DNA from: a virus
Length of the DNA stretch: 27,529 bases
IMG/VR virus record: IMGVR_UViG_3300020419_000071
Location: 1 to 27,529 of that record
Strand: one strand, 5' to 3'
Part shown: in pieces, positions 980 to 22,973 of the stretch
Layout of the letters: the number at the start of each line of letters is the position of its first letter
Numbering within the stretch: the stretch's first letter is position 1
Notes under the pieces: generated by a model
Database searches by the model: none
What the model was told of the DNA's origin: nothing
The model's input: the letters and a program-made list of their open reading frames with translations, nothing else
Program-made: the position numbers and the translations under genes

Positions 980-2638
980 TTACCTCGAGCTAAGCATTGT
1001 TATATCAAAATCAATTCCACTTAAATTGTAGTAGTTACCTGATGTTTCTTCGACCTTATAAGCTATTAGTCTTCCGTTAGCTCTCGCATCTACTTTGTAT
1101 TCACTGCCAGGAGTAAATGTAGTTGATGTATAAGTTGCAGTAGAAGCTGTAGGTAAATCAGTAAATCCTAATTTAATATCTACAGTATGTGCATTATTGG
1201 TAACTCCAATTTGTGGAACTGCACTATTTAATTGTTTCATAGATCGGAGAGGGGCTTGAGTTTCATCAAGATCAACACCTAACCTTTCTACATAAGATGT
1301 TTTAATTGTTTCTGAATGTGGTGTAGTTACAACGGATCCTGAACGTAAAAGGTCAACTGCATAAACTCTTGAGTCAGATAAACTATTAGATGTATTTTTA
1401 ATTCCTACCATTGCAAGTACATCTTTTGTAGCTGAAGACGAATATGTCATAGCTGCACCTGCAATATTCGGAAGATCCATAAATCCCCAAGTATTATTTC
1501 TTACGTTAAAAACTGCTGCTTTATTACAATAATTAGTAGAAGTAAAACCTAGTGAACTATCAGTAGAGACATAACAGAAATATACTAAATCGAGCATAGA
1601 GTCATAAGTCACAAAGAACTTATCAGCTTTAGATCTATCCATTTCACTATATATTTTACGTCTTACTCTATCATCAGCTAGAGATTGTTTCTGAACTCCG
1701 TTATGAGTGTAAATATCATTATAACCAAAAACGTAATGTGTATTACCTATTGCTGCTATACAGTTTTTAGCAATAACACCATCATCATGAAATAAATCTC
1801 TAAATGAGAATATTAGTGATGAACCTGTAAATTCCATTACTATTGATTCAGTCTGCGTATAGATAATAAATACGTTACCCATTGCTAAACCATCTTCAAT
1901 CGCTGTACGAGCATTACCAATAATGTTTTCACCTGCACTATTTGTAGTACTTGTTTCGTCCCAATCTATATTTGATTTAGAAGTTCTGTATTGTACAGGA
2001 TCTGACCATTTGACCATAGTATCGTAAGTTGTGCCTGCTTTTGTTACATTAAGTGCAACAAAGAAATCTTTATAAGATCTTATTGCTTTAGCGTAAGTAG
2101 TTGAGGCCCAACCAGTAGCTGTAGTCATAAGAGCGTAAAGTGTATCACCTTGTATATCTCTTACATACGGTGTTAAACCTGATCTGCATAAGACAGAAAA
2201 ACCTGCAAGTTCTGTGTGAGTCCAAGGTGTTGTATCAGTACCACCTGTCGAAACTGCTGAAGGTGTAACATTAGCAAAAGTACCACCTACATAATCAAAA
2301 GCAGATTTATCAACATTAGCAACAACAAGAGTTGAACCATTAACTGGGTGATTATACGAAGCCATTAACCTAGCATTGTCATCATTCGTGTTTGCAGTAC
2401 CACCATTCCAGGCAAATCCAAAGCTATCCCAACTGCCAAGAGAACCATCAGACCATACCCAATTAGCAGGTGATTGAACTTGGCTATAAAGACTTTTAAA
2501 TGCAGGTGCTCTTACAGCCTTACCTTCATCGAATATAACATTCAATCCATCACTGAATGCAGTTAAAGGTAAATCGTATGCATTACGATCTGTAATTATT
2601 CCTGCGTCTCCTAAATTTCGTAAAGGTAAGTTAACCAT
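980..2638 (-). CDS. Tail tube/nozzle-type structural protein, 552 aa
   Basis: The protein opens with MVNLPLRNLGDAGIITDRN, followed by NVIFDEGKAVRAP. This layout, a short N-terminal strand and then a statement-like 'R-x-P' segment, is typical of tail nozzle or DNA-stabilisation proteins of podoviruses (T7 gp12-like or P22 gp10-like). The rest is rich in Thr, Ser, Asn, Tyr and aromatic beta-strand segments, as expected for a beta-propeller-like virion protein. No signal peptide, membrane segment or enzyme motif is visible. It starts three bases after the stop of the tail-collar gene with no clear Shine-Dalgarno of its own, which suggests coupled translation. The exact homologue is uncertain; a tail or portal-proximal structural role is the best reading. 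Confidence 0.55.
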   Translation of the reverse strand: MVNLPLRNLGDAGIITDRNAYDLPLTAFSDGLNVIFDEGKAVRAPAFKSLYSQVQSPANWVWSDGSLGSWDSFGFAWNGGTANTNDDNARLMASYNHPVNGSTLVVANVDKSAFDYVGGTFANVTPSAVSTGGTDTTPWTHTELAGFSVLCRSGLTPYVRDIQGDTLYALMTTATGWASTTYAKAIRSYKDFFVALNVTKAGTTYDTMVKWSDPVQYRTSKSNIDWDETSTTNSAGENIIGNARTAIEDGLAMGNVFIIYTQTESIVMEFTGSSLIFSFRDLFHDDGVIAKNCIAAIGNTHYVFGYNDIYTHNGVQKQSLADDRVRRKIYSEMDRSKADKFFVTYDSMLDLVYFCYVSTDSSLGFTSTNYCNKAAVFNVRNNTWGFMDLPNIAGAAMTYSSSATKDVLAMVGIKNTSNSLSDSRVYAVDLLRSGSVVTTPHSETIKTSYVERLGVDLDETQAPLRSMKQLNSAVPQIGVTNNAHTVDIKLGFTDLPTASTATYTSTTFTPGSEYKVDARANGRLIAYKVEETSGNYYNLSGIDFDITMLSSR

Positions 2639-4135: not shown

Positions 4136-4633
4136 ATGCCTAAGACTTTAAATATCGAAAATGAATTAATAATCGCAACAGTAACTGGATCAGTTGCTTG
4201 CGACGTTAAAACTCAACGCGAATGGTATAGAAAAAATATTAATAATATTATATCGATTTGTGATGAAGGTTTGAAATATTTTAAACTTGAAAACGAAAAA
4301 ATTAAATTTCATTTTAGAAATATTCGTGGTCGAACTCGTGGCCAATATTTTAATTTAAATAAAAAAGTTGAAGTATGTTTAAAAAGTTTAAATTTAAACG
4401 ATGTTGCGAAAACGATCATTCACGAATTAGTCCATGCCGATCAATATAAAACTGGTCGACTAAAGACTAAAGGCGTAAAATCTGTTTTTAATAAAAAAGA
4501 GTTTAATAATAAAACGAAGACTCATGAAGAATATTTAAATTTGCCATGGGAAATCGAAGCTCGAACAAAAGCCGATGAAATTACGCCTAAAATTTTGGAT
4601 AAATTATTTCCAAAAAAGTCGAAGAAAAAATAA
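4136..4633 (+). CDS. HExxH zinc metallopeptidase-like protein
   Basis: This 165-residue protein has the zinc protease motif H96-E97-L-V-H100 (KTIIHELVHADQYKTG) followed about 40 residues later by LPWEIEARTKADE, which supplies a glutamate (E139 or E141) suited to be the third metal ligand. The arrangement resembles SprT-like and other small gluzincin-type domains of phages. There is no signal peptide, so it should act in the cytoplasm. The C-terminus is strongly basic (FPKKSKKK), which may aid DNA or RNA binding. ATG 4136 has GGAG 6 bases upstream. It is the single gene of unit B, between its own promoter and terminator. The target is unknown; cleavage of a host defence or regulatory protein is a guess. 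Confidence 0.75.
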   Translation: MPKTLNIENELIIATVTGSVACDVKTQREWYRKNINNIISICDEGLKYFKLENEKIKFHFRNIRGRTRGQYFNLNKKVEVCLKSLNLNDVAKTIIHELVHADQYKTGRLKTKGVKSVFNKKEFNNKTKTHEEYLNLPWEIEARTKADEITPKILDKLFPKKSKKK

Positions 4634-8375: not shown

Positions 8376-8862
8376 TATTTACGTTGATAGTAAAAATAAA
8401 GTTGCTTATACGCTTTCCATTTTTGACCATGCTCAAGAATGGCGATTGTTTAAGCAAGGCGTAGGCGAATACAATCAAATATTCTTTACCGATAATCCTG
8501 GTGAAGGTGGTAATGTTGACGATGATTGGCAAGTCGTAGATCCAAAAGATTGGTACAAGCAAATACCAGTCGAAGTTGTTAAAGATTTAATTGCTCGACA
8601 TAAAAACAATCCCATCTTTAATCAGTATATCGATGAATATAATAATATATCTAAAGTATTTAAATCTTATTATATTCGAGTTAGAAATACTTACGAGGCT
8701 TTTTATAAAGTTCAAGCAGAAAACTACGAACAAGCTCGTTATATAGCTGAAAATCGTATGTTTTCAGAAATGAACGATGAAGTTCAATCGCACATGGATT
8801 TTCTTGAATGGGACGAAGAAACCGCAATAAAGATTACGAAGAAAGAAGGTTTATTCAAATGA
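8365..8862 (+). CDS. Hypothetical 165-residue protein with GTG start, unit H
   Basis: The GTG at 8365 lies 6 bases after GGAGG, better than a TTG six bases upstream. The product begins MLNDIYVDSKNKVAYTLSIF and contains DWQVVDPKDWYKQIPVEVVKDLI, then a helical, aromatic and acidic C-terminal half. No membrane segment or known motif is visible. It overlaps the last gene of the unit by four bases. I do not recognise it. Confidence 0.7.
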   Translation: MLNDIYVDSKNKVAYTLSIFDHAQEWRLFKQGVGEYNQIFFTDNPGEGGNVDDDWQVVDPKDWYKQIPVEVVKDLIARHKNNPIFNQYIDEYNNISKVFKSYYIRVRNTYEAFYKVQAENYEQARYIAENRMFSEMNDEVQSHMDFLEWDEETAIKITKKEGLFK

Positions 8863-9107
8863 GTGAAAAGATCGGACATGGCGCTATTGATGCGTACTTC
8901 GAGTTTGCCGAAGATTGGGGGCATCTCGAAGAAGCTCGTATTGAACAAGCAATTACGGAAGAACATGCAGCGATGACTTTATATCGAATGTGTGATCACT
9001 ACGCTAAATTAAATAAACATGCTTACGAAAAGTATGAAGAATATAACCGCGATTTAAAAGATCGGTTAAAAGATGGTCTTAAGGCACCAATTGCCGAACG
9101 AGATTAA
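8859..9107 (+). CDS. Hypothetical 82-residue acidic helical protein, unit H
   Basis: I chose ATG 8859 (MSEKIGHGAIDAYFEFAEDW) since it overlaps the previous stop (ATGA) and has AGAAGG about 10 bases upstream. The protein is helical and rich in Glu, Ala and Tyr with a probable coiled-coil C-terminus (YEKYEEYNRDLKDRLKDGL). It is the last plus-strand gene, followed at once by a terminator. Function unknown. Confidence 0.7.
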   Translation: MSEKIGHGAIDAYFEFAEDWGHLEEARIEQAITEEHAAMTLYRMCDHYAKLNKHAYEKYEEYNRDLKDRLKDGLKAPIAERD

Positions 9108-9239: not shown

Positions 9240-10922
9240 CTATTGGCCACAGGATCCACCCTTCCCAGAAATGTCACATATATCATGTGTTTCTACATTT
9301 TCCTCAAATTCTTTCCCTAATTTATCTATTACTTCGCTGTAAGCAACAGGATTAAGTGGTTGTCCACCACGGCTGCCATCAGCGTAACAAGTGAAGCCAC
9401 GTAATCTCGCGGCATATTTTGCAAGTGTATTAGCAAAGTCATTTACATTATCCACATTATTTTCTTTGGTACCCCAAGCGGGTAAATTAATTGTGCTGCT
9501 TATACTCATATCTACGTAATCTTGTATATCAGCTTGAAACTTTATTCTCTTCTCATAATCAGTAGCTAAATCAATAGCACTGTCGATGTTATCAGGTTTG
9601 GCACCATATACATCTATCATCTCTTGTGCTGTCCCATCAACGACGTACTGGTATTTCCATTTGTCCCCATTAGTGAGGTAGCGTCGTTTGTAAGCAACAG
9701 CGAATAAGGGCTCGATCCCAGTTGTTGTACCTGCCAATATTCCAATTGACCCTGTTGGTGCGATGGCTCGGTTAGCAACAGGAGAAGAAACACTAAGAAA
9801 CTTAGAATACTTAGCACTAACATTATCACTAACTCCTTTATATACGGTAAGCCAATTATGTAGTTCAGGGACCACTTCATATTTATGTCCTCTCTTAATC
9901 AGCCATTCATGTATTCCCATTAAACCAAGACCTAGTCTTCGGTTCTTTTCTCTTACATCATAAACTTTATCATACGGTAACTCAGCTCTTAGTGTTCCAC
10001 ATATTAGGAATTTTGTAGCTAAGTCAGTTATTTCATTTAATTCTTTTAATGTATCTATTCTACCTAGATTTAAACTGCCTAAGTTGCATACATCACTATC
10101 ATCTTCACTAGTTACTTCAGTACATGCATTTCTCAATGTCTCTTTTTCTTTATCAAAGAAATTAAATGAGAAGCCAGGTTCCGAAGTACTAAGTGCTTGT
10201 TCAATATTCTTTTTGAATACTTCACCTACGTCACCAGTCTTATAGTAATTAAGTAACCATTCGGTATCATAATTTACTGATATGTTAGTCATATCGAGTG
10301 GTGCATTGTAGTTAAAATCTTGTGCTTTAACTTCAGCGACTGTTAGTCCTGAAGTACCTATTTTTTGTTCATGCCAATTCTTCCTTGTAAGGAAGTCATT
10401 TACATCTGCGTGCTTCCAATTAATTGAAGCATAGATAGCAGATCTTCTGCTGCCACCTTGCATTACTCTTCTACCTATTTCATTTATCATTTCCATCTTT
10501 GGTATCGGACCTGATGCAAGACCACCAGTGGACTTAAGTCCTTCGTCCTTAGCTCTATAGACACTATAGTCAACACCGATACCACCACCAGTCATCAAAG
10601 CATTTTCAGCTTTCCAACTTAGGTTTGCCCAATCTTGTCTAGTATCTTCTTCAGCTTTTAATAGATAGCAATTGTTGAAATATTTGCGAGGCCGACCTGC
10701 ATAATAAAGGTAGCGACCACCAGGAATAAACTTTAAGTCAGTTATATAGCGAGTAAGAGTATCCTTTTCGTCTTTAGACATATAGTTTTGACATACGTCT
10801 TCTACGAGTACTCTAGCTAAATCTTGCCAACTTTCGCATCCCTCATGTTTGTATTTGTAATTAAAAATGTCTTCGGAGAACTTGCTCCTAAACATTGGAT
10901 TTATATTAGATCTAAAGGTCAT
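9240..10922 (-). CDS. nrdJ: Ribonucleotide reductase, class II (B12-dependent) type
   Basis: The 560-residue product reduces ribonucleotides to deoxyribonucleotides for phage DNA synthesis. It carries the active-site pattern N265-A-C267-T-E269 (the NxCxE thiyl-radical and catalytic residues), a partner cysteine C85 in FNNCYLL, the CNLGSLNLGR segment after it, glycine-rich TGGGIGVDYS, and APTGSIGILAGTTTGIEPLF near the barrel. The C-terminal CDISGKGGSCGQ supplies the redox cysteines C549 and C558. No separate radical-generating subunit is seen nearby, which fits a B12-dependent enzyme as found in many marine podoviruses. AAGGA lies 6 bases before ATG 10922. It is a single gene between its own upstream terminator and a downstream terminator. 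The class II assignment is by sequence pattern, not proof. Confidence 0.88.
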   Translation of the reverse strand: MTFRSNINPMFRSKFSEDIFNYKYKHEGCESWQDLARVLVEDVCQNYMSKDEKDTLTRYITDLKFIPGGRYLYYAGRPRKYFNNCYLLKAEEDTRQDWANLSWKAENALMTGGGIGVDYSVYRAKDEGLKSTGGLASGPIPKMEMINEIGRRVMQGGSRRSAIYASINWKHADVNDFLTRKNWHEQKIGTSGLTVAEVKAQDFNYNAPLDMTNISVNYDTEWLLNYYKTGDVGEVFKKNIEQALSTSEPGFSFNFFDKEKETLRNACTEVTSEDDSDVCNLGSLNLGRIDTLKELNEITDLATKFLICGTLRAELPYDKVYDVREKNRRLGLGLMGIHEWLIKRGHKYEVVPELHNWLTVYKGVSDNVSAKYSKFLSVSSPVANRAIAPTGSIGILAGTTTGIEPLFAVAYKRRYLTNGDKWKYQYVVDGTAQEMIDVYGAKPDNIDSAIDLATDYEKRIKFQADIQDYVDMSISSTINLPAWGTKENNVDNVNDFANTLAKYAARLRGFTCYADGSRGGQPLNPVAYSEVIDKLGKEFEENVETHDICDISGKGGSCGQ

Positions 10923-12322: not shown

Positions 12323-12638
12323 ATAATAAATCCTGTAACAACTGAAGACCACTAGCTGTAACTTTCCATATATTGGACCAGTTATTTAAACCTATTTCAG
12401 TAGTAATAAGTTCGCAGCATGCAAGCATTGCTACTATGTCAGCATGCTTACGAGCGAAATCTGATTTTGTAGTAAAGCTATTGAAGTGAGCATGAGATAA
12501 AACTCGTACTGCTTCTTGATCTAGTTTAGTGGGTTGTAGCCCAGCTATCTCCGATATTGAATTCGGCGTCAATTCTACAACGGAAGTCAAAACTTTCCCC
12601 CGCTTTTTGCGCCGCTCGTGTAAGTTTATTACCGACAT
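12297..12638 (-). CDS. Small winged-helix-like protein overlapping the polymerase gene
   Basis: The frame encodes up to 113 residues. Its second half, ADIVAMLACCELITTEIG then NIWKVTASGLQLLQDLL, has the look of a winged helix (recognition helix, strand with a Trp, then VTxxGLxxL). I placed the start at ATG 12638, with AGGA 11 bases upstream, which overlaps the polymerase end by 113 bases in another frame. Later TTG starts with a purine-rich GGGGGAAAG ahead are also possible, so the N-terminus is uncertain. It sits between polymerase and exonuclease and could be a DNA-binding accessory protein. Not a known T7 gene. Confidence 0.6.
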   Translation of the reverse strand: MSVINLHERRKKRGKVLTSVVELTPNSISEIAGLQPTKLDQEAVRVLSHAHFNSFTTKSDFARKHADIVAMLACCELITTEIGLNNWSNIWKVTASGLQLLQDLLYENSETAD

Positions 12639-14241
12639 CTTCAGCAATTTCCTTTCTGCAAGCTAGTTGCACTTCATCGTGGACCCACGCAGATAATGTA
12701 TAATCTCCGTTCCATCCATATTTATATTCTTTATCCAAGTCATTTCTTGCAATTATTAACCATCGTTTGGCTAACAATGCTCCTGCACTTTGCAGCAATA
12801 CATTAACTGCACTATGACTACTTCTTGGATATAATCTTCTTCCATCAAGTCCTAATAAATAGCCTGTATGGTTTAATTTCTTTTCAACAGCTGTCCTAAG
12901 TGATTTAATAGCAGGAATTGCATTAAAGAATTTATCTCTTATTTCTCTTCCTGCATCTCTTCCTTTACCAATTACTTCACCTAATTTTTGATCACCTGCA
13001 CCATAGATTAAGCTATATATAAATCTTTTAGCGTCATCTCGTGTAGGTAATTGAGCAGCTTTTTGATTAACAGTGTGTATGTCATCATCTAACACTTTCT
13101 TTGCGTAGGCACCGTTATCCCATTTTGCAAGGTAGTGCGCCAAGCATCGTAACTCAAGTCCTGACATGTCAGAACCGACGAGGACGAATGAGCTGGGCAC
13201 GGTAAAACACTCACGAATTTCGGATCCGTAAGGCAACCTAGATGATGGCACCTGTGCCATGTTAGGAGCGAAGTGAGTGGCTCTTCCACTGACAGCTCCA
13301 TTGGGAATATATCTCCCTCTGAGTTTTGAATTTTTATCGACAAGTTTTAAATATCCTTGATTTCCTTCGGCAACCATACCTATCCTTTTATCAAGCAAAA
13401 AGTATTCAGCTAATAGCTGTGCTTCAGGATATTTTAATTCACTTAAAATGGTTTCATCGATTTGTGCTTGTCCACTTTGTGTAAATACTTTTGGTTTCCA
13501 ATTGTATTTTTGTGTGAGTCTGTCTGCAATTTGTTTTCTACTACCTGGGTTGAAGGGTGTGTACTTAGTTTTCGTCTTGAGTACTGTGACGTTTGGATCG
13601 AAAGTTGACTCCATTTCATCTTTAATTTCCTTCCTTCTAGCACTTAATTTACTATATAAACTAGCTGCTTTAATTGTATCGAAGTGGAAACCAGTAGTTT
13701 CTATATCTTTACAAACTGCAGCTATTTCGTGTTCTAAAATAACAGAAGTAGCTGCCATAGGAGTATTAATAAGATATTCATATAATTGATGAGTAACTTC
13801 TACGTCTTGCTTCATATACTCAAGCATCTCGTCACTATAATTTTCCCAACCACCACTGTACTCTGCTTTATTATTTCCTAATCTTTGGCCCCAAGCCTCT
13901 AACGAATGTCTTCCGTATAACTTAGTGTCTAAATTTAAAGGTCTTTGTACAAAGTCTTTATCTTTAAGATTAGGGAATGCTAGTCTTCCTAATACTAGCG
14001 TATCAATTGCTTTCTTTGGTTTGAAATTTGGAAATAACTTTTGTATTGCTGGTATATCAAAACCGACAACATTGTGACCAATGATTTCATCTGCCTTTTC
14101 TAGACAGTTAATACCTTCGGTCACATTGTCAGGAGTAAACCAACTACATTCATTTGTATCAATATCTTTAATACCAATACAATGAATTTTAGTCATTTCA
14201 TCTAGCAAACCATTCGACTCTATATCAAATATTAGTCGCAT
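12526..14241 (-). CDS. DNA polymerase, T7 gp5-like family A with proofreading
   Basis: The 571-residue product replicates the phage genome. The 3'-5' exonuclease part shows D6/E8 (FDIES), D62 (GHNVVGFDIP) and D146 (YMKQDVEVTHQLY). The polymerase part shows motif A with D358 (GSDMSGLELR), motif B (RDDAKRFIYSLIYGAG with K405, Y409 and Y413) and motif C (WVHDEVQL, H521-D522-E523). Y409 aligns with E. coli Pol I F762 and T7 Y526, so tyrosine is at the dideoxy-discrimination position. The protein is about 130 residues shorter than T7 gp5 (704) and the linker between exonuclease and fingers is short, so the thioredoxin-binding loop may be absent. Start at ATG 14241 with AAGGAG upstream. Confidence 0.95.
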   Translation of the reverse strand: MRLIFDIESNGLLDEMTKIHCIGIKDIDTNECSWFTPDNVTEGINCLEKADEIIGHNVVGFDIPAIQKLFPNFKPKKAIDTLVLGRLAFPNLKDKDFVQRPLNLDTKLYGRHSLEAWGQRLGNNKAEYSGGWENYSDEMLEYMKQDVEVTHQLYEYLINTPMAATSVILEHEIAAVCKDIETTGFHFDTIKAASLYSKLSARRKEIKDEMESTFDPNVTVLKTKTKYTPFNPGSRKQIADRLTQKYNWKPKVFTQSGQAQIDETILSELKYPEAQLLAEYFLLDKRIGMVAEGNQGYLKLVDKNSKLRGRYIPNGAVSGRATHFAPNMAQVPSSRLPYGSEIRECFTVPSSFVLVGSDMSGLELRCLAHYLAKWDNGAYAKKVLDDDIHTVNQKAAQLPTRDDAKRFIYSLIYGAGDQKLGEVIGKGRDAGREIRDKFFNAIPAIKSLRTAVEKKLNHTGYLLGLDGRRLYPRSSHSAVNVLLQSAGALLAKRWLIIARNDLDKEYKYGWNGDYTLSAWVHDEVQLACRKEIAEDVGNKLTRAAQKAGESFDFRCRIDAEFNIGDSWATTH

Positions 14242-14249
14242 AGTTCTCC

Positions 14250-15863
14250 TTAAAACGGCATATCACTGAAACTTTGTTCAACTAATCTGCCAGTATCTTG
14301 ATTATAATTTAGTTCTGCAGCTTTACCTGTTTCACCACTAAATCTATTTTTAACTACTCTTACAGTAGTCGTGTTACTATCTTCTCCTTGTTGATCTCGC
14401 TCTAAACCAATAACCATATCTGATAATTGACCAATTGCTTGAGATCCACGAAGTGCATTTAATGACACTTGTAATCCATCTTCAAAACCTTTGTTTCCTT
14501 CAGGTCTTCTTAAATGTGATACAAGCAACATACCTACACCTGTTTCTTCAACTAAAGTGCGGAGTTTTGTCATACATATATCTATAGCTTTCCTCTCATC
14601 AGCCACATCAAGGCCGGAAACAAGAATACTAATATGATCAAGTATAATCCAAGAACATTCGACTCCTTTGGCCAAGTAACGTATTCTAGCAAGAATGTTG
14701 TCGACAGCAGTGCTACCAAAACTATCATAAAGAAAAACGCTATCATTGCCGAATACAGCATCGAAAGCACCACGTAAATCAGCACTCTTTGTATTTTCTG
14801 TACTAATGTGGAGTGGTGAATTAAGTTCAATACCCATGAGACCCAACGCGGTTCTCTTAATATTTTCTTCGAGAGCAATATAACCAATTTTCTCTCCATT
14901 CTTTATTAAATGATGAGCGCATTCACGTACAAAGGCAGTTTTTCCTATTCCTGAACCTGCTGTAACTGTGACAAGTTCTCCTTTGCGCATTCCACGCGTC
15001 ATCGTATTGAGTGCATTGAAAGGATAACCAATAGCAGATGCTGCCTCCTGCTTGCTCACCATATTCCATAAATCTTTGGCAGCAATGATTCCGTCTGGAC
15101 GAAATACAGGCGCATTCCACACACAATTTGTGAGTTCCTTAAACTGATTATTGACCAGCATTTCGTTTGGATCTTTAGCAGGTAAAGTCGCTATATAGGC
15201 TTTACCTGGTGATAATATTTCAGCACATTTCTTAGCGTTTTCTTGACCTGGAGTATCTGTATCAAATACAAACACTACAGCATCAAATCTTTCTAACCAT
15301 TCTAATTCTCTTTTAATGGCTTTAGAAGCGCCTTGTGCTCCACCTGGCACTGATACTACAGGCCAAGTGTTTCCTAATACTTGTGAAAGAGATAATGCAT
15401 CTATTTCACCTTCTGTTATAAATACTCTTTTACCACCATTTTGTAATTGTTGTCCAAATAGTGGTAAGTTAGAGCCATCTCCTACGATGCGAAACTTCTT
15501 ATGTTTATCTCTAGTTTTTAAAGCAACTAAAGAACCATTGCGATAGTAAGGAGCAAGCTGAAGACTATTACCCACTTTATATCCGTATCTACGACATGTG
15601 TCTTCTGCAATACGTCTTGCTTTGAGGGCTTGAATTTCAGCTTTCTCGTATACTTTTTCTTGTTCCGAATTATCCTCTGTTTGTACTTTGGTAAACGGAC
15701 TATTTTCGCTATTGGGTTCACTACCATCTGCTGCTCCATAAGTTTCACATGAAAAGCAATAAGTATGTCCATCAGAGTAAACTGACAATGCATCTGAGGA
15801 GTCACATTTAGGACATGGTGCGTGATGCAAAAATGTCGCTGATGAATCCTGTGTTGTCGCCAT
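14250..15863 (-). CDS. Primase-helicase, T7 gp4-like
   Basis: The 537-residue protein unwinds DNA and makes primers at the fork. An N-terminal zinc ribbon is formed by C17, C20, C36 and C39 (CPKC...CFSC). The TOPRIM primase domain shows E151 (VFITEGEIDAL) and D201-x-D203 (FDTDTPG). The DnaB/RecA-type helicase follows with Walker A at about 301-309 (TAGSGIGKT), IALEENIKRT, WIILDHISIL (Walker B) and LVSHLRRPEG. The acidic C-terminus ends DMPF, like the T7 gp4 tail that contacts the polymerase. Its ATG has AGAGGA 8 bases upstream and overlaps the MazG gene by 56 bases. Confidence 0.94.
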   Translation of the reverse strand: MATTQDSSATFLHHAPCPKCDSSDALSVYSDGHTYCFSCETYGAADGSEPNSENSPFTKVQTEDNSEQEKVYEKAEIQALKARRIAEDTCRRYGYKVGNSLQLAPYYRNGSLVALKTRDKHKKFRIVGDGSNLPLFGQQLQNGGKRVFITEGEIDALSLSQVLGNTWPVVSVPGGAQGASKAIKRELEWLERFDAVVFVFDTDTPGQENAKKCAEILSPGKAYIATLPAKDPNEMLVNNQFKELTNCVWNAPVFRPDGIIAAKDLWNMVSKQEAASAIGYPFNALNTMTRGMRKGELVTVTAGSGIGKTAFVRECAHHLIKNGEKIGYIALEENIKRTALGLMGIELNSPLHISTENTKSADLRGAFDAVFGNDSVFLYDSFGSTAVDNILARIRYLAKGVECSWIILDHISILVSGLDVADERKAIDICMTKLRTLVEETGVGMLLVSHLRRPEGNKGFEDGLQVSLNALRGSQAIGQLSDMVIGLERDQQGEDSNTTTVRVVKNRFSGETGKAAELNYNQDTGRLVEQSFSDMPF

Positions 15864-16209
15864 GCTCTGGTCCTCTCCAATCTTTAGGTTTAATTAAATC
15901 CCATCCGTCGCTTTGTTCACGTCCTTTCTTAACACCACGTTCTTTAGCCATGTTAGCAGCGTGTACTTTGTCCCACGCTTTTTGGACGTCAACTCCCGCG
16001 ATCGCCAGGGTTCCGAGACTGAACACCACAATATCAACCAGGGCATCTACAACTCCTTCTGCATCGCCTTTCGCAAATGCTGTTACTAATTCATCTTGTT
16101 CTTCTTCGATTTGATCTAATCTAAATGCTAGTTTATCACTATCGAGTTTCTCATGGTTAAAACCATATTTCGCTTGTAAAGCATACGAATCTGCTACAAT
16201 GGAACTCAT
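15808..16209 (-). CDS. MazG-like nucleoside triphosphate pyrophosphohydrolase
   Basis: This 133-residue protein shows the all-alpha NTP pyrophosphatase signature: an EExxE cluster (E36, E37, E40 in QIEEEQDELV) followed by a helix with acidic residues (EGVVDALVDIVVF, with D55 and D59), which together bind Mg2+ and hydrolyse NTP or dNTP to the monophosphate. The hydrophobic tail of the domain is LGTLAIAGVDVQKAWDKV. The same fold family includes dUTPase-type and T4 gp56-type dCTPases, so it may act on dCTP. It overlaps the primase gene at its end and the preceding 67-residue gene by four bases. Substrate not determined. Confidence 0.82.
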   Translation of the reverse strand: MSSIVADSYALQAKYGFNHEKLDSDKLAFRLDQIEEEQDELVTAFAKGDAEGVVDALVDIVVFSLGTLAIAGVDVQKAWDKVHAANMAKERGVKKGREQSDGWDLIKPKDWRGPEHGDNTGFISDIFASRTMS

Positions 16210-16409
16210 ATTTTATTACCTTCAGGTATGTAAATACAAGTACTATATCCATTAAGATAATGAGGATCTTGAGTTGTGCTAGATCGTACTTTTTCTATAT
16301 ATTCATAACATCTTTCTTGTGATGTAAATGGGAAATTAACCATTGGAAAATTAACCCATGCAGACGTATTTCCTAACGCCCATAAAATTGTAATTACAGG
16401 AATATACAT
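16206..16409 (-). CDS. Small exported or membrane-anchored Cys-containing protein
   Basis: The 67-residue product begins MYIPVITILWALGNTSAWVN, a hydrophobic signal-like segment, followed by a soluble part with two cysteines (RCYEYIEKV and STCIYIPEG). A similar layout is seen in the 59-residue protein at 22794-22973, so the two may be related. AGGAG lies 7 bases upstream of the ATG. It sits between the kinase and MazG genes in the nucleotide module. Function unknown; a periplasmic role is likely from the signal. Confidence 0.65.
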   Translation of the reverse strand: MYIPVITILWALGNTSAWVNFPMVNFPFTSQERCYEYIEKVRSSTTQDPHYLNGYSTCIYIPEGNKI

Positions 16410-16419
16410 TCCTTCTCTC

Positions 16420-16914
16420 CTATAAGTTCAGGATAAAACGGCAAAACTCATCTCTATTGGTTTCGTCATAATCATAATTATGGTATGTTCCGTAATTTCC
16501 TGTGGCTATCATAGCCAAATATTCTTCTTGGATAGCAGATGCGTTGTGATACATCTCATATCTCTCTTTTTCTAATTTATTAAAATTTCGTTGAACATTC
16601 TTGTTAGTGCAGATTACAAATTTAGGATTGTAAGCATCGATAGCTTCTTTAACTAAAGCCTTTACATCATAAGATGCACTTTCTCTATGTTGTCTTCCAT
16701 ACACTAATTCTGATAGTGCCCAACGATCAATAATAACTGGTACTTTTGCTTGTTCTTCAAGTTTGCCTGCTGTGTGCAGCACTAGTCTGTGATACGCTTC
16801 AATATTCCAATCTTCATGATATGAACAATGGAACATTTGAGAACGGTTTAGACTAGCTAAATGATTTGCAAGCGTTGTTTTGCCTGTACCATCAGCACCT
16901 TCTAAAATTATCAT
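16420..16914 (-). CDS. Deoxynucleoside monophosphate kinase-like protein
   Basis: The 164-residue product has the P-loop EGADGTGKT (residues 5-13), followed by DRW (D63-R64, in IIDRWALSELVYG), like the thymidylate kinase superfamily, which phosphorylates deoxynucleoside monophosphates. The sequence FVICTNKNVQRNF is a probable lid-proximal strand. It overlaps the hydroxymethylase-like gene by four bases (ATGA). In T4, gp1 is a kinase that acts on hydroxymethyl-dCMP next to gp42. A dTMP kinase or a hydroxymethyl-dCMP kinase are the two best readings, and the context favours the second weakly. Confidence 0.75.
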   Translation of the reverse strand: MIILEGADGTGKTTLANHLASLNRSQMFHCSYHEDWNIEAYHRLVLHTAGKLEEQAKVPVIIDRWALSELVYGRQHRESASYDVKALVKEAIDAYNPKFVICTNKNVQRNFNKLEKERYEMYHNASAIQEEYLAMIATGNYGTYHNYDYDETNRDEFCRFILNL

Positions 16915-17723
16915 ATTTTTTTATATCTTTTCGCTAAACTTTCTAGTTTGTGAATTAATTCTTTTAATGTTGATGGTGGATAATTATAAAATACATTATC
17001 TAATTCTCTATTTGTCATAGATGTATACAGTTGTTGATAAGCTACAGGAGTGTAGCCACTAACTGAATTTTTCATTTTATAATATTTATCGTAATCAGAA
17101 TCATATAAATGAAAACTGCCGACATTAACTGTACATGTTCCTAAATCTAAATCTTTTGATCTTGTTTCAAGTAACATCAGTTGCATTGCTCTAGCAATCA
17201 TACTAAAGACAAAAACATCATAACAAAATCCTAATAAAACATCTTGTGATCTCATACCAACAACTAAGTGAAGAGTATTATCTCTTACTAAAAATTGTAT
17301 AGAAGTCGTACAAGGAATGTCTTTTGATTTCGCTGGGCGTTCTCGCCATATATTTAAATATGCTTGCCTAGTATCTTTATCGTTCACGATTTGTTCTTTA
17401 CACCATGATAGTTGATCCACGATTTTAGGACCATACGCACCATTTAAGGTCAAACCATCATCACTATAATTACTATATGATTTCATATACTCAGAAATAT
17501 AATCTAAGTCATTTCTGCCACTTAAAATCCATGCTGCTTCTGCAAACATAAATCCATAATTCATGTTTCGATCAGCTAGAGTTATAACTGGACTAGATAA
17601 ATCATATTTATATTGAATTCCTATATTTTCTCTTACATCTCTACCTCTAGGTCTTGAGAAGTAAGTATAATTACTAGCAAGATCTGATATATTGTCTTGC
17701 CATATTTGATTTATACATTTCAT
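16911..17723 (-). CDS. dCMP hydroxymethylase-like, thymidylate synthase superfamily
   Basis: The 270-residue protein belongs to the ThyA fold. Visible elements: WILSGRND (residues 65-72), the catalytic cysteine C138 in DIPCTTSIQFLVRD, the R158-S-Q-D161 segment of the nucleotide pocket, and NVGSFHLYDSD (H205, Y207). Thymidylate synthases have Asn in the motif after the pocket (GLPFNIA); here the segment is GFCYDVF with D169. T4 dCMP hydroxymethylase has the same Asp (GFRNDYA) and matches in neighbouring positions (CTNTVQYLIRD, MRSNDVVFGF). So the predicted product is 5-hydroxymethyl-dCMP from dCMP and methylene-tetrahydrofolate. Adjacent kinase and MazG genes support this. Misassignment to thymidylate synthase is the main alternative. 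The Shine-Dalgarno lies before a hairpin. Confidence 0.82.
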   Translation of the reverse strand: MKCINQIWQDNISDLASNYTYFSRPRGRDVRENIGIQYKYDLSSPVITLADRNMNYGFMFAEAAWILSGRNDLDYISEYMKSYSNYSDDGLTLNGAYGPKIVDQLSWCKEQIVNDKDTRQAYLNIWRERPAKSKDIPCTTSIQFLVRDNTLHLVVGMRSQDVLLGFCYDVFVFSMIARAMQLMLLETRSKDLDLGTCTVNVGSFHLYDSDYDKYYKMKNSVSGYTPVAYQQLYTSMTNRELDNVFYNYPPSTLKELIHKLESLAKRYKKI

Positions 17724-17761: not shown

Positions 17762-18157
17762 TTAAACACTCAACCATTCGGTTGGAATTAACTTATCTGA
17801 AAATGGAAATCCGTATTTATTACACCAATCTCCATAGCTAGTCTTACTACCTTTATTGATTTTCGAAGAGCTTCTTGAAAACACAATTCTAATATCTTTG
17901 TGAGGGTGTTGCTCCTTAACTAAACGCATTTTGCGTCTGTCTTCAGAAGTAAACCTACCCTTACATTCAACAATAATTCCGTTTGGAAGAATAAAGTCTG
18001 GAAGATATGTTGAGTTTATTAAATAAGGAATACGCTCAGTTTCATATTGATACTTTACTTTTTCATCATTTAATTGATTTGCAACATTACATTCTAAACC
18101 ACTTCGAAAACCATTAGCAAACTTAATATGCTTAAAAGTCTTCTGTGGATTCCTCAT
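17762..18157 (-). CDS. Endonuclease I, T7 gp3-like Holliday junction resolvase
   Basis: This 131-residue nuclease resolves branched DNA and helps degrade host DNA. The active-site pattern of T7 endonuclease I is visible: E22 (GFRSGLE), D54 (TYLPDF), E64 and K66 (IVECKGRF), then REQHPHKDIRIVFSR-like and TSYGDWCNKYGFPFSDKLIPTEW at the end. I chose ATG 18157 because the family starts here (MRNPQKTFKHIKFANGFRSG) and the overlap with SSB (26 bases) is then short; a longer frame start would read into the SSB gene. It follows the SSB gene as in T7 (genes 2.5 and 3). Confidence 0.93.
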   Translation of the reverse strand: MRNPQKTFKHIKFANGFRSGLECNVANQLNDEKVKYQYETERIPYLINSTYLPDFILPNGIIVECKGRFTSEDRRKMRLVKEQHPHKDIRIVFSRSSSKINKGSKTSYGDWCNKYGFPFSDKLIPTEWLSV

Positions 18158-18638
18158 TGAATTCTTCTTCCTGAGATACGTGCACATAACCTTCTTCTTC
18201 TTCAAATTCAGCACCGCCAAATTCAACAAGGTCGATAAGTTGTACTGCATTGAGATATGCTGTAACACCTTTAGCGCCTCCTGCATCATAAGTTCCTAGA
18301 ACACCAGAAACTTTAATTGTTGATCCATTTCCTACATTAACTTCATCATTTATTTTCTTGCCTTTGGCATCATAAATAACTGGTTTCTGTTTACTCTTAG
18401 CTTTAAAAGTAACTACATCACCTTCTATGTTAAATGGATATTTTGCTTTATTGAGTTCTTTTTCTCCGAACTCTTCGATAAATAGTGATTTTGCTTTTTT
18501 CATTATTTCACTAGCTTCACCTTTAGAAACTATAACATCAGTTTTGTACTTTCCTTCAGTATCAAAACGTGTATCTGGCTTGTTAAACCAAGGCCAGTTT
18601 GCAGTTCCTTTAGGTGAGACAAATTTGGCTTTTGCCAT
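18132..18638 (-). CDS. Single-stranded DNA-binding protein, T7 gp2.5-like
   Basis: The 168-residue product starts MAKAKFVSPKGTANWPWFNK, the typical opening of the T7 gp2.5-type OB-fold SSB, with beta-rich segments (FNIEGDVVTFKAKSKQ, TIKVSGVLGTYDAGGAKGVTAYLNAVQL). The C-terminal tail is very acidic (EEEEG ... EEEFNEESTEDF) and ends in an aromatic residue, the feature that contacts polymerase and primase-helicase. ATTAGGAGAG lies before ATG 18638. It is followed by endonuclease I and preceded by two small genes after the RNA polymerase gene. Confidence 0.88.
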   Translation of the reverse strand: MAKAKFVSPKGTANWPWFNKPDTRFDTEGKYKTDVIVSKGEASEIMKKAKSLFIEEFGEKELNKAKYPFNIEGDVVTFKAKSKQKPVIYDAKGKKINDEVNVGNGSTIKVSGVLGTYDAGGAKGVTAYLNAVQLIDLVEFGGAEFEEEEGYVHVSQEEEFNEESTEDF

Positions 18639-19066: not shown

Positions 19067-21736
19067 CTAAGTAAATGCGTATTGACTTATTTTAATTTCA
19101 TTTAAATCAAGCTCGCCTTTATCTGGAGCATTAATATTATATTTAATTCCTAAATCATTAAAAACATCGTTTTCATCATACATTTCTATAAAGGTGTCTC
19201 GTATAATATTATACCACCTTTGTGTGTTTGCTGCATGTGTACCAAACGAGTCATGAATAAGACAAAAATCATCAATGCCCTGTTCAATGGCTCTTAAAAC
19301 TGTAAACATTAAATGTGATGCATCTAATGAGTGAATAAAGTTTGGTGCAGCTCCGTTGCGTTGTTTAATCTTGTTAATAACGCCAGTTGGTGCACTTCTT
19401 ATATTACACATAATACAGTTATAAACTTCATCTCTATTATTTATTTTGCTATTCTTAGTAGCTTGAGAAGGTAAGATAGTTTTGTCGTACAAAAAGATTC
19501 TTACTCTGCTTATCAACCAAGTCTGATAAAAACTAACTACAGGCAAACCTATTGGACTTGTCCATTGTAGTGGTTCATTACGTTTGTTAGCTTCAACAGA
19601 ACATTGCTGTAAAAACTTCATACCTTCAGCAGCTTTTTTTATAACTTGGTTAACTGCTATCCAAGTTTCGCCTGCTAAGAAAGTGGCAGCAGACCTTCCA
19701 TTATCGACACCAAAAGGATGCGACTTGATTATTCCATCAAGTACCTGATCTTCTAATGGTCTCATTAAGTCTTCAATTAGTTGTTGTCTAAACCCATACT
19801 TTTCCGAAGAATAAGGAAAGGTCATAACATTACGCTTAACAGTCTTTCTATTAATACCATAGCTACGCCAAGCTATAGCTTGTTCACTATTATCATTATT
19901 AATATTATTATTAACATAATCTGCAACTATCTGATAGACATCTTGAGGATCCTTAGTATGTGTTAGATTAACACTAGCTCCTCCCTCTTTATCTCTTAGT
20001 GCGGCACAATAGTGTTGAACACCACTGTTAGTTCCGTCTAAAGAGACTGGTAAATTGCTAATAAAATCTTCACCTTCTTCCATAACTCCTGCAAATTCTG
20101 CACAAGCTGCTAAGAAGCTAAAAGGTTTATCAGCTAATTGCCAAATGTGTTTTGTTAAACCAGGTTTAATACCAACACAATAAATTGCTCTTTGGTTTTC
20201 TTCTACCCATTTAACTCTATCTTCTAATGATCTTTTACTAATCTTATTAAAATCACCACAATTTGCTAAATGAACAGCTAACCAATAAACACCTGCTTTT
20301 CCTATTCTCATTCCTTTAGCAAATGTAAACATTGCACGAATATAATCAGCACGTTGATGATTAAAAGTAGGAACAGGATAAACACGTCCTCTAAAGTCAA
20401 GACTATGAGGTAAATAGAATTTATCAAACTGAAGTAATTCTTCAGCCATATTAAGATCTGTAGTCATATTTACTACATCGGCTTCTATAGTGCGATTTCT
20501 TAATATAACTTTCTCTTTATTCTTTTTTATTCTCTTTCTTTCTTTAGAATCTAGTTCTTCCCAATTGTTAACTTTACCTGGTATTTTTAATTTCTTTTTT
20601 CTAGGAAATTTAGATATTAAATCACCATTTTTATACGATTTGTTAACTTGTTCAAAAACAACATTATTAATTTTAAATTCTGTATCTTGTATTGCATTTA
20701 AAGATTTATAAACTTTAGACATATCTGCATTAGCAATCAGATCTTTTTGTGTATTTGAACTGTGTTTAATTAATGGAACTAAACTCGATAATTTTTTATT
20801 GTGATAACAGCCTGAACTAAATGATTTCCAAGGCTTTGGTTTCTTTAACATTGGTTTAAATACTGGCGACATCCATTTTATAGAACCTTCTAATTCACTA
20901 ATCAGTTGGTGTCCCAATTTTGTCATTCCAAGCATCTTTGAAACATGTTTTCTAGCAGGTTTATTATAAACTTCAAAAAGTTCTGAACCTGCAATAACTG
21001 CATTTAAAACTGCTTGTCCTACACTTAAATATTTTTCACTAGACCATCGATCTAATCCATGACCTTCTCTTTGAGAAACAGCAGATATTGCTTTTAATCT
21101 ATGTCTTCTTGAGTTGTGATTTTTAACAGCCATTTTAAATAATCTGTTGAATAAATCAGGGTTATTTTTCTTAAAATCTTGAGCCCATAATTCAACAGAA
21201 ATAGCTCTACCAATATTAACACAAATATTAGTTACATTTATGTATTGACCTACACCTATAAAAGAGTAATTCAAACCGATAAATGCTATTGTTTCACTAG
21301 GAATATTCTTAAGGCAATAATACCAAAAAGGTCTCCTAGTTATTAATTCTTGTTCTTCTATTGAACTTAAAATTCTTTGTTGTACTAAAGGAAGTGATCC
21401 TTTTGTAAGCTGAGTATCAATAGTTCCTAAGATACCTGCTTGTTTTAGTTGTGATTCTTGTTGTTTAAATCTTTTTTCACCTGAAGCTAATATTGCTTCT
21501 TCAGCTAACTCCATTAATCCTCCTTTGTTAACTAGCGCTACATCTCTTAATTCTGTATTTTTATAAATACCGTCTTCAATACCCCAACCCCAAATATTTC
21601 TTCGTCTATTTTGATAACCTTGGTACATGCCTCTATATTGAGCATCATCACTTTTTTTATTTAAGAATCTTTTTTGTCCTGAAGACGTTTTCGTTCTAAA
21701 TTTATTTAAAATTTGAAGTTGATAAAAAATATTCAT
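19067..21736 (-). CDS. Single-subunit DNA-dependent RNA polymerase, T7 gp1-like
   Basis: The 889-residue protein transcribes phage genes from its own promoters. Motif A is NLPVSLDGTNSGVQHYCA with catalytic D567; motif B is R630-K-T-V-K634-RNVMTFPY642SSEKYGFRQQ; motif C is FCLIHDSFGTHAA with D829. The promoter-proximal elements DFRGRVYPVPTFN (about 447-459) and APNFIHSLDASHLM (797-810) match T7 RNA polymerase. Length is near T7 (883). The N-terminal region has RRRNIWGWG at 44-52. AAGGGGGA lies before ATG 21736. The integrase gene and the attachment site lie just upstream. The repeated AGACGCA motif in this window is its most likely promoter, by inference. Confidence 0.95.
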   Translation of the reverse strand: MNIFYQLQILNKFRTKTSSGQKRFLNKKSDDAQYRGMYQGYQNRRRNIWGWGIEDGIYKNTELRDVALVNKGGLMELAEEAILASGEKRFKQQESQLKQAGILGTIDTQLTKGSLPLVQQRILSSIEEQELITRRPFWYYCLKNIPSETIAFIGLNYSFIGVGQYINVTNICVNIGRAISVELWAQDFKKNNPDLFNRLFKMAVKNHNSRRHRLKAISAVSQREGHGLDRWSSEKYLSVGQAVLNAVIAGSELFEVYNKPARKHVSKMLGMTKLGHQLISELEGSIKWMSPVFKPMLKKPKPWKSFSSGCYHNKKLSSLVPLIKHSSNTQKDLIANADMSKVYKSLNAIQDTEFKINNVVFEQVNKSYKNGDLISKFPRKKKLKIPGKVNNWEELDSKERKRIKKNKEKVILRNRTIEADVVNMTTDLNMAEELLQFDKFYLPHSLDFRGRVYPVPTFNHQRADYIRAMFTFAKGMRIGKAGVYWLAVHLANCGDFNKISKRSLEDRVKWVEENQRAIYCVGIKPGLTKHIWQLADKPFSFLAACAEFAGVMEEGEDFISNLPVSLDGTNSGVQHYCAALRDKEGGASVNLTHTKDPQDVYQIVADYVNNNINNDNSEQAIAWRSYGINRKTVKRNVMTFPYSSEKYGFRQQLIEDLMRPLEDQVLDGIIKSHPFGVDNGRSAATFLAGETWIAVNQVIKKAAEGMKFLQQCSVEANKRNEPLQWTSPIGLPVVSFYQTWLISRVRIFLYDKTILPSQATKNSKINNRDEVYNCIMCNIRSAPTGVINKIKQRNGAAPNFIHSLDASHLMFTVLRAIEQGIDDFCLIHDSFGTHAANTQRWYNIIRDTFIEMYDENDVFNDLGIKYNINAPDKGELDLNEIKISQYAFT

Positions 21737-22793: not shown

Positions 22794-22973
22794 TTATTCT
22801 TTTTGTTTTGGTACACAGTACGCTTTAATATAGATACGATCACCTGCCGTTCTTTGATGATAATTTTGTGATGTAATTTTATTAGAATATTCTAAACAAG
22901 TGTTTAAATCGCTGAAGTATATTTCTTCTTTAATATCAACACCTGCAAGAATAACTATTAACAACCAAAGCAC
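22794..22973 (-). CDS. 59-residue protein with signal anchor and two cysteines, GTG start
   Basis: The GTG at 22973 overlaps the stop of the 13-residue gene (TAGTG). The product begins MLWLLIVILAGVDIKEEIYF, a short hydrophobic segment, then a soluble part with C at NTCLEYS and AYCVPKQKE. The layout matches the 67-residue protein at 16206-16409 (hydrophobic start, C-x-EY helix, then YxxC at the end). A periplasmic or membrane-anchored location is likely. Its stop lies 5 bases before the integrase promoter motif. Function unknown. Confidence 0.55.
   Translation of the reverse strand: MLWLLIVILAGVDIKEEIYFSDLNTCLEYSNKITSQNYHQRTAGDRIYIKAYCVPKQKE

Follow-up and report, generated by a model that had tools for sequence, protein, structure and literature searches.

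Cytosine replacement is best known in large T4-type phages. The T4 deoxycytidine monophosphate (dCMP) hydroxymethylase, gp42, has the ThyA fold, and the roles of its Asp179 and Asp145 have been established biochemically (PMC6400193). Among phage contigs, Asp at position 177 (Escherichia coli ThyA numbering) is experimentally linked to cytosine modification, which position 147 also marks, and the co-occurring thymidylate-synthase and PF01503 families are likewise linked to it (PMC8670742). Here we analyse a small gene cassette in an uncultivated marine virus, the 27.5 kb IMG/VR record IMGVR_UViG_3300020419_000071 (positions 1 to 27,529, the whole of which is called the window). An earlier note had proposed, from the sequence alone, that the cassette is a T4-like route to 5-hydroxymethyl-dCTP in a T7-like podovirus. 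Our analysis makes it highly likely that the cassette makes 5-hydroxymethyl-deoxycytidine triphosphate (dCTP) and that the base enters phage DNA as protection against restriction; very probably its ThyA-fold enzyme acts as a dCMP hydroxymethylase, not as a thymidylate synthase. All four open reading frames (ORFs) that the note had located are present on the minus strand, between the genes for endonuclease I and primase:

16911..17723, minus strand: ThyA-fold enzyme of 270 amino acids, predicted dCMP 5-hydroxymethylase (Pfam PF00303, E = 4e-20)
16420..16914, minus strand: P-loop nucleoside monophosphate kinase of the dTMP-kinase (thymidylate kinase) fold, 164 amino acids, predicted hydroxymethyl-dCMP kinase (TIGR00041, 7e-11)
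16206..16409, minus strand: small ORF with a hydrophobic N-terminus, without Pfam or PHROG match
15808..16209, minus strand: MazG-like all-alpha nucleoside triphosphate (NTP) pyrophosphatase, putative dCTPase yielding dCMP (PF01503, 1e-10)

The ThyA fold assigned in the note lies well beyond chance. In addition to the Pfam match, the best PDB sequence match is the Streptomyces cytidine monophosphate (CMP) hydroxymethylase MilA (7e-25), and T4 dCMP hydroxymethylase is also matched (9e-8). The AlphaFold model (pLDDT, the predicted local distance difference test, 89.8) is closest to MilA, the nearest solved structure at 30% identity (VIA, Z 27.5, 2.0 Å over 244 residues); phage dCMP hydroxylases dependent on flavin adenine dinucleotide (FAD) follow (9iqc, Z 23.9; 9iqu, Z 23.1), with thymidylate synthases at Z about 23. 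The NCBIfam thymidylate synthase model scores the enzyme at 54 bits, against a cut-off of 327 bits. Phylogenetically, it falls in a supported clade (96/94) with the enzymes of HTVC119P, HTVC200P, AXL3 and ct3Et533, separate from thymidylate synthases and from deoxyuridine monophosphate (dUMP) hydroxymethylases. A scan of genome contigs for bacterial homologues matched 15 stretches, none encoding a relative.

The chemistry was assessed from an alignment of the query enzyme with E. coli ThyA, T4 Td, T4 gp42, SPO1 gp29, MilA, a Bosavirus enzyme, the RB69 enzyme and others. Four positions were read as a code: −3 and +1 relative to the catalytic Cys, E. coli position 177 and the folate Asp. Bosavirus is the genus to which Xp12, a 5-methylcytosine phage, belongs; DoCa10 stands in for Xp12, with the enzyme activity there being presumed; the aligned RB69 5-hydroxy-dCMP enzyme is ∼98% identical to the solved 9iqc/9iqu. 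Thymidylate synthases read L/H/N/D, dUMP hydroxymethylases D/N/N/D, Xp12-genus D-type enzymes N/P/D/D and 5-hydroxy-dCMP enzymes E/T/D/N. T4 dCMP hydroxymethylase reads D/T/D/D, and the query is identical to it. The codons are:

17217..17219, minus strand: D169, cytosine-selecting Asp (T4 D179; N177 in E. coli ThyA), from the alignment
17319..17321, minus strand: D135, at −3 from the catalytic Cys (T4 D145, which activates water; thymidylate synthase has Leu), from the alignment, role from PMC6400193
17307..17312, minus strand: C138-T139, catalytic Cys (T4 C148) and Thr (H147 in E. coli ThyA), from the alignment
17241..17243, minus strand: D161, folate-pocket Asp (conserved among folate enzymes; Asn in FAD-dependent 5-hydroxy-dCMP enzymes), from the alignment

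The motifs on which the note had built its case, GFCYDVF with D169, MRSQDVLLGF and CTTSIQFLVRD, are exact, as are their parallels in gp42 (MRSNDVVFGF, CTNTVQYLIRD), and Asp occupies the D169 position in each of the 158 viral relatives in the alignment. The thymidylate synthase triad (Asn177, His147 and Leu143, E. coli numbering) is replaced in the query by Asp, Thr and Asp. Also absent are the pairing of Asn177 with Asn after the Cys found in dUMP hydroxymethylases, the Asn-x-x-Cys-Pro motif with neighbouring dihydrofolate reductase (DHFR) of Xp12-genus dCMP methylases, the Glu-x-x-Cys motif with Asn for the folate Asp of AfhB/RB69-type enzymes, and the Ala176 and Lys133 of MilA. MilA shares the D/T/D code, but its Ala and Lys are ribose-type residues (PMC5175136), whereas the query has the deoxyribose-type Ser159 and Arg119; dCMP and not CMP is therefore predicted as the substrate. 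The folate contacts equivalent to T4 Glu60 and Tyr96 are kept (query E62, Y97, D161 and G165). With gp42 the query thus has in common the fold, the catalytic Cys, the D/T/D code, the folate Asp and Gly and the deoxyribose-type Ser and Arg, although overall identity is only ∼23% and the query resides in a T7-like phage. Outside the classes compared here, the ThyA of cyanophage S-TIM66 (L111 3983-4819) has Asp177 together with Cys at −3 and His at +1 from the catalytic Cys, a combination that differs from the other classes tested.

Gene linkage was measured in two directions. Loci found by the enzyme were selected with patterns that contain the Asp and so cannot serve as independent evidence on that residue; the test instead used a set retrieved from viral contigs with no query other than the kinase alignment, some contigs recurring in both sets. 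In this kinase-first set 72 of 77 loci have a ThyA-fold ORF at most 2.5 kb away and on the same strand, and in four of the remaining five the kinase is at the contig edge. Of these enzymes, 71 were of sufficient length for scoring; every one has Asp at both positions (70 DCTD, one DCSD), and the Asn of thymidylate synthases occurs in none of them; the sequences are related by descent, so the loci are not 71 independent events, while the kinases diverge down to 28% identity. Conversely, 77/80 enzyme-first loci have the kinase no more than 2 kb from the enzyme, and among 50,697 phage records it has three matches, all in genomes with this enzyme adjoining. MazG is a frequent, not a constant, partner: it is near the kinase in 74/77 kinase-first loci and within 4 kb of the enzyme in 49/80 enzyme-first loci.

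The cassette occurs in several T7-like lineages, two cultured pelagiphages (HTVC119P and HTVC200P) among them, as well as in siphoviruses, for example AXL3. In HTVC119P (L003 8493-9341) and HTVC200P (L007 5902-6720), marine T7-like phages of Votkovvirus, the D/T/D enzyme is annotated as thymidylate synthase; as in the window, kinase and enzyme adjoin between endonuclease I and primase, but the gene order is reversed, a lysozyme gene lies in between and no MazG was detected. Pelagiphage HTVC168P has at that junction a lysozyme gene and no cassette, which marks the cassette as an accessory module there. MazG, kinase and hydroxymethylase are likewise adjacent in AXL3, PW916 and ct3Et533, which have other virion types and add a methyltransferase and dCMP deaminase; the kinase of AXL3 and PW916 is larger than that of the query. 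The AXL3 enzyme, 41% identical to the query, has the same residue code, and of 37 restriction enzymes just 2 cut AXL3 DNA, the sites of both consisting of A/T only (PMC7504290). The cytosine-modified contigs found by MetaGPA share with the query an Asp177 ThyA-fold enzyme and a PF01503 pyrophosphatase, but often add a dCMP deaminase or carbamoyltransferase, whereas the query has a dTMP-kinase-fold kinase and no deaminase (PMC8670742). The dCMP hydroxymethylase proposed in the earlier note is supported by the residue codes set against five chemistries, by the co-occurring kinase, by the missing DHFR (below) and by the restriction-resistant relative AXL3.

Among other chemistries on this fold, direct C5 hydroxylation survives best. 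A FAD-dependent 5-hydroxy-dCMP synthase of the RB69/AfhB type would place 5-hydroxycytosine in DNA, and the phage structures 9iqc and 9iqu share with the query the fold, Asp177 and the Thr after the Cys; RB69 and its kin, moreover, were long mislabelled as hydroxymethylases (PMC13390438). Yet four members of this type (34-100% identity to RB69) carry Glu at −3, Asn in place of the folate Asp and Val for Gly165, where the query and all 158 relatives have Asp, Asp and Gly. The cassette has no sugar-modifying genes around it, and the model fits MilA better (Z 27.5), so that we regard 5-hydroxylation as unlikely.

Methylation of the thymidylate-synthase type converts tetrahydrofolate to dihydrofolate and requires DHFR; hydroxymethylation has no such need. 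The DHFR profile matched in none of 79 related loci, and neither DHFR nor ThyX nor dCMP deaminase was found in the window, in two near-complete relatives of 39-40 kb or in HTVC119P. DHFR stands beside four of nine comparison enzymes, all four with Asp177 but without D/T/D. These data bear on a dCMP methylase like that of the Xp12 genus, which would yield 5-methylcytosine in DNA and has in its favour that Asp177 alone converts thymidylate synthase to a dCMP methylase, a result cited in PMC8670742. The DoCa10 enzyme and its relatives, however, are N/P/D and neighbour DHFR, as expected since reductive methylation consumes tetrahydrofolate, whereas the query is D/T/D and no DHFR was found in its contig, in the two near-complete relatives or in HTVC119P; we judge this chemistry quite improbable.

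Current annotations of HTVC119P, HTVC200P and AXL3 present an ordinary thymidylate synthase that would supply dTMP to a thymidylate kinase; Pfam, PHROG and NCBIfam all give the enzyme that name, and the kinase scores as a dTMP kinase. We nevertheless accord this reading very little credence, given the NCBIfam score far under the cut-off, the replacement of Asn177, His147 and Leu143, the lack of DHFR and, in AXL3, a separate ThyX beside the annotated thymidylate synthase. A dUMP hydroxymethylase, whose product hydroxymethyl-dUMP would serve thymidine hypermodification of the kind reported for HTVC023P-type pelagiphages and proposed in other pelagiphages (PMC9599517), shares Asp135 with the query but is hardly credible, because SPO1 and two more presumed dUMP enzymes combine Asn177 with Asn after the Cys, as none of the 71 kinase-linked enzymes does.

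If the cassette makes 5-hydroxymethyl-dCTP, its steps may be ordered as follows. The MazG-like enzyme would hydrolyse dCTP to dCMP, removing plain dCTP and supplying substrate, and the ThyA-fold enzyme would place a hydroxymethyl group on dCMP: Cys138 would attack C6, Asp169 would recognise and protonate the cytosine, methylene-tetrahydrofolate would provide the carbon and Asp135 would activate water. The dTMP-kinase-fold enzyme would take hydroxymethyl-dCMP to the diphosphate, a host kinase would complete the triphosphate and the T7-type polymerase would insert hydroxymethylcytosine into phage DNA, protecting it against restriction. The specificities of the dCTPase and the kinase are the least certain steps of this proposal.

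Domain searches uphold the note's calls of a P-loop kinase and a MazG-like protein. The kinase model (pLDDT 94.8) reaches Z 16.4 to YorR of the SPBc2 prophage and about 15 to dTMP kinases; its P-loop, DR motif and overall fold are those of dTMP kinases, and the motifs GxDxxGK and DRxxxSE are invariant. The parallel drawn with T4 gp1 and gp56 holds for function, as predicted counterparts, and fails for family. T4 gp1 matches PF21448 (3e-107), which the query kinase does not; that gp1 is missing from the top 50 structural matches of the kinase argues neither for nor against a relationship. The pyrophosphatase is PF01503 and gp56 is PF08761, both of which we take to lie within the all-alpha NTP pyrophosphatases. 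In T4, moreover, the kinase and pyrophosphatase genes are scattered, whereas here they stand beside the enzyme. Since the database record of T4 gp1 lists dTMP, dGMP and hydroxymethyl-dCMP, but not dCMP, as substrates, a hydroxymethyl-dCMP kinase could plausibly have arisen from the dTMP-kinase fold. The query kinase is probably a dedicated partner of the hydroxymethylase. By analogy, the query MazG-like enzyme is plausible as a dCTPase, because a cyanophage MazG hydrolyses dCTP and dGTP, according to work cited in PMC11092137.

Several observations weigh against the hydroxymethylation reading or limit it. The tree does not fix the link between the query clade and T4 gp42, because gp42 forms a very long branch, and we found no assayed enzyme from this clade in the literature. 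The Ser/Thr that the T4 signature has two before Tyr96 is missing: Gly95 precedes Tyr97 in the query, and 156/158 relatives agree. We treat this Gly as a caveat and not a refutation, because the T4 S94A mutant retains about 25% activity (PMC6400193) and SPO1 dUMP hydroxymethylase has Ala there, so that Ser is not universal for hydroxymethylation; judged by its residues, the enzyme is therefore classed as a dCMP-type pyrimidine hydroxymethylase predicted to work like gp42, not as a strict member of the gp42 signature. MazG is weak evidence by itself, since such genes are widespread without the cassette: they are common in marine T7-like phages, and all ten roseophages studied have one, plus ThyX (PMC11092137). 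The restriction resistance of AXL3 is indirect evidence, as that phage has other candidate modification genes. Finally, bare 5-hydroxymethylcytosine is exposed to modification-dependent restriction, and no glycosyltransferase was recognised among the large ORFs of the two 39-40 kb relatives, nor any modification enzyme among the few mid-sized unknowns scanned, a scan that was not a systematic glycosyltransferase search; judged by their length, order and sequence, the large ORFs there seem to be structural or replicative. The simplest prediction is therefore unglycosylated hydroxymethylcytosine.

Accessory genes differ among carriers. A methyltransferase lies near the enzyme in 47/79 related loci and dCMP deaminase in 44/79, with neither in any of the 19 T7-like loci. 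Siphovirus and freshwater-phage cassettes are the ones accompanied by the methyltransferase and dCMP deaminase. In them an S-adenosylmethionine-dependent methyltransferase adjoins MazG (L004 3644-4468, L005 7372-8268) and could act on the modified base.

On balance we favour, with some reserve, the broader view that several marine T7-like lineages, cultured SAR11 phages among them, replace cytosine with 5-hydroxymethylcytosine through this compact cassette and a previously unrecognised dTMP-kinase-fold kinase dedicated to hydroxymethyl-dCMP, the modification being perhaps unglycosylated. A cassette moving between T7-like podoviruses and siphoviruses would mean that the trait is more widespread, and more readily gained, than annotation implies, since public records label the enzyme thymidylate synthase; the four-residue code may offer a simple re-annotation rule for ThyA-fold phage genes. 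Two carriers are cultured SAR11 phages, which makes the claim directly testable, and the kinase, found only beside the ThyA-fold enzyme, is a candidate for a kinase selective for hydroxymethyl-dCMP.

The other main genes of the window are:

17762..18289, minus strand: T7-type endonuclease I, just upstream of the cassette (PF05367, 1e-50)
14250..15863, minus strand: T7-type primase-helicase, downstream of the cassette (PF21268, PF03796)
12526..14241, minus strand: DNA polymerase (homology to annotated phage DNA polymerases)
9240..10922, minus strand: ribonucleotide reductase large subunit, best match the B12-dependent NrdJ, deoxynucleotide supply (TIGR02504, 3e-60)
19067..21736, minus strand: single-subunit phage RNA polymerase, a T7-like hallmark (phrog_414, 7e-199)

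The window also encodes a T7-type single-stranded DNA-binding protein, a 5′-3′ exonuclease and an integrase. Its own single-subunit RNA polymerase and T7-type replication genes place it in the T7-like Autographiviridae, and the label T7-like in the note was sound: RNA polymerase, primase-helicase, single-stranded DNA-binding protein and endonuclease I are all there, with an integrase besides. Among isolates, its nearest neighbours by DNA are pelagiphages and roseophages, most of them sharing 65-68% identity with parts of the window. A closer relative, the contig L002 (87% identical), keeps all four cassette genes in the same order, and the ratios of nonsynonymous to synonymous substitution (dN/dS) between the two show that the cassette genes are under purifying selection (enzyme 0.16, kinase 0.20, small ORF 0.48, MazG 0.03).

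The fast-evolving small ORF has counterparts only in L002 and the fragment L014; it and another at 22794-22973 (minus strand) each combine a hydrophobic N-terminus with a cysteine pair. At 8808-9107 (plus strand) a 99-aa ORF has a weak, below-cut-off match to Tad4, an inhibitor of type I Thoeris (E = 4e-4). Between integrase and RNA polymerase, contig L021 carries a 163-aa ORF (1797-2288, plus strand) with a weak match to pyrimidine-dimer glycosylase (PF03013). A 165-aa ORF of the window (4136-4633, plus strand) has the motif HELVHADQ and weakly matches SprT/M76-like metallopeptidases, and similar ORFs occur at L021 16868-17371 and L205 1038-1595.

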